From contig JBFMHE010000002.1 of assembly GCA_040752355.1 (NCBI GenBank), positions 1-64,000 of the forward strand: a stretch of 64,000 nt of DNA, written 5' to 3'. Positions 32,640-53,532 of this stretch are shown here, in pieces (the first letter of the stretch is position 1; each line of letters starts with the position of its first letter). The position numbers were made by a program, and so were the translations under genes. The notes under the pieces were generated by a model, which was not told where the DNA came from, ran no database searches, and was given only the letters and a program-made list of their open reading frames with translations. The DNA is from Nitrospirota bacterium. GTDB taxonomy: Bacteria > Nitrospirota > Thermodesulfovibrionia > Thermodesulfovibrionales > Dissulfurispiraceae.

Positions 32640-32644
32640 ATATT

Positions 32645-32790
32645 CACATAGCAGCCGAGATCCATTCAAGGAATGGATGCGGGGGACCCAACCGTAGGGG
32701 CGTATTCCTGATGCCTGATGAAGGATAGGGCACTTCCAAGCCCGAGCCCGACAGCTAACCTCGTAGGCGTGTGGAAGGGCATAGGTCAGA
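32645..32790 (+). ncRNA. c-di-AMP riboswitch, ydaO/yuaA type
   Basis: The region carries the characteristic blocks of this class in order: GGGGGACCCAACCG near 32690, GGGGCGTATTCC near 32700, GGATAGGGCACTTCC near 32724, then CCCGACAGCTAACCTCG near 32748 and GTAGGCGTGTGGAAGGG. The aptamer is followed at once by a terminator and then kup, a potassium importer, which is the textbook target: high c-di-AMP promotes termination and turns off K+ uptake. Boundaries are approximate. The call rests on motif recognition, not on a covariance model. Confidence 0.92.
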
Positions 32791-42180: not shown

Positions 42181-42295
42181 TATTGAGGCTGCCACTCCAG
42201 CAACCCCTCTTTCCTGTGGTTGGCAGGACAGGTGGCTTTGTGCCATACGGTTGCCCGTACTTTACCTTGGTTCGGAGTGGCAGTTCGTATGCTTT
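42143..42295 (-). ncRNA. Candidate structured small RNA, unidentified
   Basis: Minus-strand unit of about 150 nt with promoter (42302-42330) and terminator (42143-42178). Helices: outer CTGCCACTCC/GGAGTGGCAG (42274-42283 with 42189-42198, 10 bp); inside it GTACGG-GCAA-CCGTAT, a 6-bp stem capped by a GNRA tetraloop; GGC-acaaa-GCC; and CCTGT/ACAGG (42213-42217 with 42228-42232). GCAACC (minus, 42249-42254) can alternatively pair with GGTTGC (42200-42205). No good open frame. It resembles no class I can name with confidence; some blocks recall the c-di-GMP-I aptamer but do not fit it. Confidence 0.6.
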
Positions 42296-50486: not shown

Positions 50487-52097
50487 TCAGGAGCGGCTGC
50501 TCCCGGGAGTGCCGGTGTTGATCTCTGAGCTGAAATGGAACTCGATATCCGGGTACTCCTCCTGCATGCGCCGGAGGGTCCAGTCGGATTCCGAAAAATA
50601 GACGAGATTGCCGTCTTTATCCAGACCCAGCCGGTCTGAACGGTAGCGGGAGAACTCTTCCATCTTCTTTTTATCGGTTGCGGTTATCCAGCACGCCTTG
50701 TTGTAATTGAGCGGCGTAAAGCGGCATGACGCTCCGTACTCATGGAGCAGCCGGTGCTGTATGACGTCGAACTGCAGCTCCCCGACCGTGCCGACGATCT
50801 TCTTCTTGCCCTGCTGCTGCGTGAAGAGCTGCGCCACTCCTTCGTCGGTGAGCTGCTGCAGCCCCTTTTCGAGCTGCTTCGAGCGGAGGGGATCGGTGTT
50901 GACCACCTCCTTGAAGACCTCGGGAGAAAAGCTCGGAATGCCCTGGAACATGATCTTTTCGCCCTCGGTAAGCGTATCGCCGATCTTGAAGTTGCCGGTA
51001 TCGTAGAGGCCGATGACATCGCCGGGGTAGGCTTCCTCGATAATGCTCTTCTCCTGCGCCATGAAGCTCGCAGGGCTCCTGAACCTGAGGTCCTTTCCGA
51101 GCCGTACATGGTGAAAGAACTTGTTCCGCTCGAACCTGCCCGAGCAGATGCGCACGAAGGCGATCCGGTCGCGGTGGCGGGGATCGATGTTGGCGTGTAT
51201 CTTGAAGACGAACCCGCTGAAGCGCTCCTCATGCGGTTGAACGGCGCGGAGATCGGCGACCCTGCCCCGGGGCGGCGGCGCAATGGTCGTGAAGGTGGCG
51301 AGCAGCTCCTTCACCCCGAAGTTATTGATGGCGCTGCCGAAGAAGACCGGCGCGAGGTCTCCCGCGAGGTACCGCTCCCGCTCGAAGGGATCGTAGACGC
51401 CTTCGACAAGGGCCGCCTCCTCACGCAGCTGCGCCGCGTGCTCCTCGCCCAGCTGTCTATCGAGCGTGGCGTCGGCGAGGTCGTTGATGGCGAGCACGTC
51501 CCCGGCAACGGTCTCGCCGCCGGGGTGAAAGAGGCAGAGGCTCTTATCGTAGAGGTTGTACACGCCTTTGAACGAAAAGCCCATGCCGACGGGCCAGCTC
51601 AGCGGCCGGACCCTGATGCGGAGCTTCTCCTCGATCTCGTCGAGCAGGTCGAAGGGACGTTTGCCCTCGCGATCGAGCTTGTTGATGAAGACGATGACCG
51701 GGGTCTTCCTCATGCGGCAGACCTCCATGAGCTTCTCGGTCTGCTCCTCCACCCCTTTGACGCAATCGACGACGATAATGACGCTGTCCACGGCGGTCAG
51801 GGTGCGGTAAACGTCTTCGGCGAAGTCTTTATGGCCGGGCGTGTCGAGGAGGTTGATCTTGAGCCCGTTGTAGGTGAAGTTCATCACCGAGGTCGCGACA
51901 GAGATGCCGCGCTGCCGCTCGATCTCCATGAAGTCGGAGGCGGTGCTCTTCTTGATCTTGTTCGATTTCACCGCGCCGGCGGTCTGGATCGCCCCGCCGA
52001 AGAGCAGGAGCTTCTCGGTGAGGGTCGTCTTCCCTGCGTCGGGATGGCTGACGATGGCGAAGGTCCTTCTTTTGTTTATCTCATCTGCATACATCAT
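50487..52097 (-). CDS. prfC: Peptide chain release factor 3
   Basis: 536 residues from ATG 52097 (frame open to 52112). G domain with [18 protein letters not shown] and NKLD motifs, and switch I region [12 protein letters not shown]; domain II and the RF3-specific C-terminal domain follow to the end. RF3 is a GTPase that removes RF1/RF2 from the ribosome after peptide release. A -10 like TATACT lies about 40 bases upstream on the minus strand. Confidence 0.96.
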
Positions 52098-52174
52098 ATC
52101 CGTGCTCCGCAAAGCAAACTGATAGTATACCCAAAAAGACGCGGAAGGCGCAAACCGTAAAAACAGACACGACG

Positions 52175-52381
52175 GAACCGGAAGGGGGCTCTCCGAGGCG
52201 GGGCAGCTCGGAATCGAGTCGTACCGACCCGCTCCGGAATTCCCGAAAAGTCTACGACTTTCCGGGAGCCCTCTGCATTTCGATGGGGTCCCCGAAAAGA
52301 CAACGTCTTTTGGGGGCGGGGCTTACGCTTGGGCTGCCCGTGCCGCTCCAAATGCCCCGCCTCGGAGCCCCCTTCCGGTTC
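52175..52381. repeat. 207-bp structured inverted-repeat element, unidentified
   Basis: Terminal arms 52175-52205 and 52353-52381 are inverted copies: 29 bases match, with a 2-base insertion in the left arm. Inside are CTCG-gaat-CGAG (52207-52218), a hairpin TCCCG-a-AAAGTC-tac-GACTTT-c-CGGGA (52241-52266), and CCCC-g-AAAAGAC-aac-GTCTTTT-GGGG (52290-52315). The last two are similar, with a T-A pair swapped to A-T at the same stem position. It sits in the 364-bp divergent gap between prfC and the acyltransferase gene. No open frame of note. It could be a structured RNA or a small non-autonomous mobile element; no target-site duplication is clear. Confidence 0.75.
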
Positions 52382-52461: not shown

Positions 52462-53532
52462 ATGGAAGAAAAAGAGTACCTGCTCTGGCCCGACCTGCTC
52501 AAAATCGTCTCGATCTACGCCGTTATCCTGGTCCATAGCGCCGCCCCCCTGCTGGTCCGGTATCACGAGCTCGGCGCGCTGCAGTGGTGGATCGGCAACC
52601 TGTACGACGCCTCTGTGCGCTGGTGCATTCCGCTCTTCGTCATGGTGAGCGGCACCTTCGTGCTCGGCAACTCCGACGGCAATGCCGCAGGTCTTTTTTC
52701 CCAGAAACGGGTCATGAGGGTTTTCGTGCCGTTTCTCGTCTGGAGCTTTATCTATTTTCTCTGGAGGATCTACGGCAACGGGGAGGAGCTCTCCTTCTCC
52801 TCTTTCTTTCCCCTCATCTTCGTGGAACCGGTCTACTATCATCTATGGTACCTCTACATCATTATCGGGCTCTACCTGATTGCTCCGGTCCTCAGTGTCT
52901 ATCTGAAAAACGCCGGGAGCAGGAATGTGCTCTATTTTCTGGTCCTCTGGTCCATCACCGCCTCGCTGCTCCCAATGGCCGAGTCCCTTTTCGACATCAG
53001 GATATATCTCTCGACAGGGGCTTCCAACTCGGTCTTCACGTTCCTCGGATATTTTGCTCTCGGCTACGCACTTCGCGATCTGCATCTGCGGCCCCGGCAG
53101 GTCCCTCTCTTCCTGCTCCTCTTCTGCCTGGGCTTTTTCGTTACGGCCTACGGGACGTACTATGTCACCGTCCTGAAGAACGGCGGTATCTTCGACGGGA
53201 TGTTCTATGAATATTTCAGCGTCAATGTCCTGGTAATGTCGCTCTGTGTCTATGCAGTCGGAAAGAGCATCGCCTTTCCCGCCGCCCTGCTGCAGTGCGA
53301 GAAGCGTTTCAGGATAGTGCGCACCGTAGCGGCCTGCGTACCCGGGATCTATCTCGTCCATGCCATGCTGATCGAGATAGCGAAGGACGGACTGCTCGGC
53401 GTTGCCTTCAGCCAGACCACGTTCGCTCCTGCCCTGGGAGTGCCGGTATTCGCGCTCGCTATTTTCCTTGCGTCGCTTATTGTCGTGTTCATCGTGAAGC
53501 TGCTGCCGGGGACACGGTACATAGTGCCCTGA
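52462..53532 (+). CDS. Acyltransferase family 3 membrane protein
   Basis: 356 residues, about ten membrane helices. It fits acyltransferase-3/WecH-OatA-type proteins: the first helix has LLKIVSIYAVILVHSA with the conserved His, then WCIPLFVMVSGTFVLG and later HLWYLYIIIGLYLIAPVL. Family members O-acetylate cell-surface sugars. No SGNH domain is attached. Start ATG 52462. TATAAT at 52391-52396 is a possible -10 box. Close to the hydrolase gene (21 bases). Confidence 0.9.
   Translation: MEEKEYLLWPDLLKIVSIYAVILVHSAAPLLVRYHELGALQWWIGNLYDASVRWCIPLFVMVSGTFVLGNSDGNAAGLFSQKRVMRVFVPFLVWSFIYFLWRIYGNGEELSFSSFFPLIFVEPVYYHLWYLYIIIGLYLIAPVLSVYLKNAGSRNVLYFLVLWSITASLLPMAESLFDIRIYLSTGASNSVFTFLGYFALGYALRDLHLRPRQVPLFLLLFCLGFFVTAYGTYYVTVLKNGGIFDGMFYEYFSVNVLVMSLCVYAVGKSIAFPAALLQCEKRFRIVRTVAACVPGIYLVHAMLIEIAKDGLLGVAFSQTTFAPALGVPVFALAIFLASLIVVFIVKLLPGTRYIVP

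Follow-up and report, generated by a model that had tools for sequence, protein, structure and literature searches.

The element at positions 52,175–52,381 of the window (the 64,000-nucleotide stretch analysed, from Nitrospirota contig JBFMHE010000002.1) is likely to be a composite and degenerate copy of a non-autonomous repeat that is dispersed between genes and whose folded strand would be recognised in trans. The repeat itself is a new, previously unnamed family of structured dispersed intergenic repeats. It was first noticed as an inverted-repeat element with internal hairpins, in a preliminary description made from the sequence of the window.

The copy in the window and its family

The preliminary description had proposed BLAST against the genome, and the element proved to be multi-copy: 64 matches were found in its own genome (3.57 Mb), and a covariance model built on 77 copies gave 50 matches there at E ≤ 0.01, the best at 8.6e-38. 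It is therefore no lone copy unconserved in relatives, since there are many copies here and relatives have matches. A search with the core pattern found 18 copies in its strict version and 127 in its relaxed version.

Read in orientation, a copy runs P1 - CGCTCATTCTCG - hairpin 1 (..GGCATCCNGCC..) - TCCGAGG - P2 - hairpin 2 (..ATCCAT..) - P2' - CCGCTC - P1', and an intact one spans ~110–200 bp, with a copy-specific outer stem, P1, around the junction of two hairpin arms. Hairpin 1 has a variable stem, a GGAU loop and a three-nucleotide GGA bulge at its base, the second arm (P2-H2) has a variable stem and a GGA loop, and CGAGAAUGAGCG and GCGG are conserved single-stranded linkers. Across the aligned core copies the loops, the GGA bulge and the linkers are near-invariant while the stems vary. 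Terminal repeats are particular to subfamilies (TTAGAG..TCTAAC..AATGA in the window genome, TTATTCATAAA in others). In the subfamily of L164, L178, L179, L181, L203, L211, L223 and L228 (FK1.bin72), the stretch from the end of hairpin 1 to hairpin 2 is swapped for another long palindrome (GACAGGTTAAGGCTAAGGTTGAGGC..CAACCTTAACCTG).

Matches to the covariance model occur in 25 of 148 Nitrospirota genomes, and in 24 of 110 among the good ones; per-genome copy counts across Nitrospirota are lower bounds, at least 23 for the element-rich genomes. Hosts in the pattern scan were Thermodesulfovibrionales and other Nitrospirota MAGs, Desulfurivibrio sp. AMeS2 and Desulfobulbaceae, together with scattered, chance-like single matches. 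The Desulfobulbales copies (Desulfurivibrio, Desulfobulbaceae), aligned by fitting to the structure, match the covariance model with E from 6e-18 to 2e-11. A search of plasmid, phage and viral contigs gave no match to the element, and Rfam 15 has no family above its gathering threshold for it. The family is undescribed in the literature covered, which includes the REP surveys PMC12306157 and PMC3733652 and lies largely outside subscription journals.

The window copy departs from this layout. As first described, inverted 29-bp ends enclose three hairpins; the two arms (Table 1) are exact complements apart from a single bulge of 2 nt (TC) on the left side. The whole element was also said to fold, and it does so strongly, with z = −8.7 as DNA and −7.5 and −7.6 as RNA on either strand relative to dinucleotide shuffles, 0 of 200 of which folded as well. 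The third hairpin contains GTCGTACCGAC. The outer stem runs straight into TCCGAGGCGGGGCAGC, and a region is missing that is present in L002–L005, four near-full relatives which are 91–95% identical over 158–183 bp. As this alignment shows, a deletion has fused the outer to the inner stem and removed hairpin 1, and the original ends were different from the present 29-bp ones; these look clean because P1 resembles P2 in this subfamily, so that the fused arm still pairs. Lacking hairpin 1 and carrying two small palindromes, the window copy is probably a relic rather than an active copy.

Table 1. Parts of the window copy and its neighbouring genes (window positions).
Feature	Position	Strand	Remarks
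Left arm	52175..52205		P1 outer stem (52175-52191) joined to inner stem strand TCCGAGGCGGGGCA; segment with CGCTCATTCTCG and hairpin 1 gone; from alignment with L002-L005
Third hairpin, TCGAGTCG-TAC-CGACCCG	within ~52209..52236		Extra in some copies of the genome, e.g. L006-L012, L020-L026
Small palindrome A, CCCGAAAAGTC-tac-GACTTTCCGGG	52242..52266		Second repeat family
Small palindrome B, CCCGAAAAGAC-aac-GTCTTTTGGGG	52291..52315		Second repeat family; 3 mismatches to consensus, scored at 52288-52316
3' half of conserved core	52316..52352	-	Hairpin 2 remains, P2' GGGCTGCCC, junction CCGCTC; minus is the wobble-tolerating strand
Right arm of outer stem P1	52353..52381		From complementarity to left arm
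Neighbour gene prfC	50487..52112	-	ORF, context; name from the preliminary description
Neighbour gene, acyltransferase-like	52462..53532	+	ORF, context; name from the preliminary description

Elsewhere in the window, two riboswitches score above their Rfam gathering scores: c-di-AMP at 32643-32784 (plus strand, 82.9 bits) and c-di-GMP-I at 42196-42276 (minus strand, 50.4 bits).

Gain and loss of copies

Orthologous intergenic regions were found with and without the element (L244/L249, L185/L226, L243/L241). The L170 copy is absent in G139, G004, G012 and G022, the L201 and L250 copies in G004, and the L249 copy in G012; the copy at L216/L237 is absent in G139 and G004 and is reduced to a shortened remnant in G022. 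In this remnant (L321, L317) the two P1 arms are joined by AAGCGG only, and internal deletion is therefore one route of loss. At L201/L222/L316 the element is common to two genera at one locus, so its activity is low or old; at some loci it occurs in two genera and is missing in a nearer relative, and losses therefore also occur.

At sites orthologous to L170 and L239 (L302, L308, L325), the empty sites contain a small hairpin similar in its outer bases to the element's P1; there the element may have entered a hairpin loop, or have been lost with the stem left behind. As a general rule, the idea that the element inserts into loops of terminator hairpins already in place was discarded, being suggested by L170 and L239 but not by L201, L249 or L250.

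Palindromic repeats of bacteria are mostly interpreted as what remains of DNA transposons. For a MITE-type transposon, a DDE transposase would recognise the terminal inverted repeats and the core would be a passenger, and subfamilies of the element do have common terminal repeats. However, the ends and P1 are wholly different between subfamilies and it is the core that is conserved, which is the reverse of a MITE. Nor was a clean target-site duplication seen at the compared empty sites, whose flanks have diverged, and searches with Y1_Tnp and one terminal motif found no transposase gene with the element's ends. We consider a MITE unlikely; what stands of the original MITE-like label is a multi-copy, dispersed element, but not one with conserved family ends.

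Paired changes, strand asymmetry and position

The structure of the element is under selection. In the A1 alignment (77 copies, 34 pairs), whose copies share ancestry, so that neither covarying changes nor mismatches count as independent, 92.9% of cells are paired vs. 78.7% in shuffles, 29 of the 34 pairs have changes on both sides, and double-change cells number 393 vs. 103 ± 15 in shuffles. The pairing signal collapses when the partner is slid by one base. The window genome's copies alone, in a structure-fitted alignment, have 231 double-change cells vs. 71 when shuffled. Between orthologous copies, again aligned by fitting to the structure and with some pairwise comparisons overlapping among three genomes, 47 double changes from one Watson-Crick pair to another were counted vs. 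38 single changes; L216 and L237 are separated by three double changes, with no single changes.

Covariation had originally been claimed from the two related hairpins inside the window copy. These are indeed 80% identical, with T-A swapped for A-T at the same stem position and one mismatch per stem. Selection on structure is borne out, but a single swap is weak on its own, and the real covariation lies between copies of the larger element, while the twins are two members of a separate family of small palindromes.

Mismatches in P1 are strongly asymmetric. On the CATTCTCG strand there are 97 A.C and 7 G.T (25:1 in the window genome, 72:6 elsewhere), with the A.C excess in the same direction in 13 of 13 columns; per element, alignments fitted to the model of the structure give 57:6 and 29:1. 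On the complement of that strand these mismatches are G.U-type wobbles and make up ~10% of P1 pairs. Hairpin 1 and P2 lean weakly in the same direction on A1; in the model-fitted alignments, themselves partly misaligned, the P2/H2 columns lack the asymmetry. Since A.C exceeds G.T, the complement of the CATTCTCG strand must be the one that folds, as RNA or as single-stranded DNA, and we read the mismatches as pointing to selection on a folded single strand. Covariation together with one-strand G.U tolerance, the general marks of a structured RNA, are both present. The structured-RNA candidate of the preliminary description is thus upheld as to selection on one-strand structure, but single-stranded DNA of the same strand would also fit.

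The asymmetry also bears on a pure DNA palindrome effect, in which hairpin-templated (quasi-palindrome) replication correction copies one arm to the other and there is no functional folded molecule. Any strong palindrome can drift in this way, and the excess of double over single changes between close orthologues looks as if both arms change in one event. Yet templated correction has no strand preference and should yield A.C and G.T intermediates in equal numbers, which is far from the P1 ratio, and the loops, GGA bulge and linkers stay near-invariant while the stems vary. Such an effect is distinctly improbable. The strand bias of compensatory intermediates serves as a simple test of folded-strand recognition against DNA palindrome correction, and the same test is applicable to ERIC, REP and MITE families.

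Strand-specific hairpins are the substrate of the Y1 HUH transposase class, and the window genome has six Y1_Tnp genes, so that a REP/BIME-type element moved by a RAYT (a Y1 HUH transposase) on its folded single strand has to be weighed. However, none of the six Y1_Tnp genes is flanked by the element when their flanks are read, G022 lacks any Y1_Tnp match although it has 23 or more copies, and G024, G013, G031, G131 and G149 also have elements without Y1. There is no conserved GTAG or CGTC tag, and the element is larger than a 20–40 bp hairpin, all of which makes a RAYT very unlikely as its mover. The Y1_Tnp genes at L084, L086 and L087 have their own short flanking repeats (ggacacatcccctatttatt; gggtcagacttaatacttga), which bear no relation to the element.

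None of the 47 copies mapped in the window genome lies inside an ORF, genes being taken from a simple codon-usage script. Twenty copies stand between tandem genes with the wobble strand antisense to both and nine with it sense, while nine have convergent and nine divergent neighbours; the divergent promoter site first described is thus correct for the window copy but incidental. Relative to the surrounding 14–20 kb, the wobble strand coincides with the G-poor strand for 32 of 45 copies (two ties; p ~0.02), and the intergenic skew for the 47 copies is 34 to 13. This position is unlike that of a 5'-UTR or 3'-UTR RNA and fits a repeat tolerated between genes. The orientation bias of the copies may be replicative, and a strand bias of this kind, seen with respect to both genes and GC skew, might favour DNA over RNA.

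An ordinary intrinsic terminator or 3'-UTR stabiliser might be suspected, as copies often lie tens of bases from a stop codon, but at least 8 T in the following 12 nt were found after only 3 of 330 P1 bases (165 elements, both strands), orientation to upstream genes is mixed, and in tandem contexts antisense placement of the wobble strand prevails (20:9); we regard this reading as highly improbable. A regulatory RNA sequestering CsrA/RsmE is barely credible. GGA is near-invariant in both loops and the bulge, csrA is present in the window genome and hairpin 2 resembles the CsrA SELEX site, but no CsrA match was found in G009 and G156, which have at least 23 copies each, or in G147, G036 and G162, which refutes CsrA binding as a general function and leaves an incidental role that it could have in some hosts.

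In the explanation that we favour, the element would be recognised as a folded single strand by a trans-acting factor, with RNA a little likelier than single-stranded DNA. The putative factor would read the loops and the junction, not the sequence of the stems, and recognition would drive, or once have driven, the spread of the element as a selfish or semi-selfish repeat. The GGAU loops, the GGA bulge and CGAGAAUGAGCG offer a concrete motif with which to seek a binding protein. More speculatively, and with considerable doubt on our part, the family might represent a new class of dispersed repeat that spreads as or through a folded RNA: SINE-like, with near-invariant GGAU loops, present in Nitrospirota and Desulfobulbales, its stems free in sequence but pairing kept on the transcribed strand.

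Small palindromes and likeness to known systems

The small palindromes of the window copy belong to a second repeat family with the consensus GTCCCCGAAAAGTC-NNN-GACTTTTCGGGG. Among 149 genomes of the order, 22 carry them, one genome having as many as ~30 palindromes; the pattern is nearly self-complementary, so that listed counts can be double. In relatives the palindrome is read through in long ORFs, for example in look-alikes of secretin, an NtrC-type regulator, SMC, CbiD, HisC, RecD2 and 5'-nucleotidase. The names secretin, NtrC-type, SMC and RecD2 come from reading the sequence; Pfam confirms CbiD, an aminotransferase and a 5'-nucleotidase among the palindrome-bearing proteins, and HisC and a CCA-adding enzyme are confirmed by PDB matches. 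Compared with 3euc, the palindrome lengthens HisC by only ~4 residues.

In-frame palindromes of 29–35 bp were seen inside ORFs of known proteins in several Thermodesulfovibrionales (L031 1499, L034 341 and 383 in tandem, L042 1375, L046 1499, L198 5572, L386 1502, L387 1502, L388 1500, L390 1502, L393 1502, L395 1500, L396 1163). They are translated in several frames, as GVPxKSxTFRG, TPKSLRLFGD and PRKVxDFSGx.

How does the larger element compare with known repeats? Like REP, REPIN and BIME sequences, it is a dispersed intergenic hairpin repeat and probably non-autonomous, but it is larger, with a three-way junction and an outer stem of variable sequence, it is without the GTAG/CGTC tag, and it occurs in a genome without a Y1 transposase. 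With MITEs (ERIC, Correia and RU-type repeats) it has in common a length of 100–200 bp, palindromic ends, intergenic location and a patchy distribution, whereas its core is conserved, its ends are variable and its wobble tolerance is strand-specific. Stand-alone copies of mobile structured RNAs such as HEARO (IscB omega RNA) are likewise numerous, dispersed, structured-RNA-like and without an ORF; the element differs in having no Rfam match, and because its ends pair with each other it has no free guide end.

Rickettsia palindromic elements (RPE) resemble the small inner palindromes only, as both are short in-frame palindromes inside protein genes. In-frame presence in ORFs of known proteins was found in relatives, where four cases were compared with known homologues, and not in the window copy. 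The small palindromes differ from RPE in phylum and sequence, and they occur also between genes and inside other repeats.
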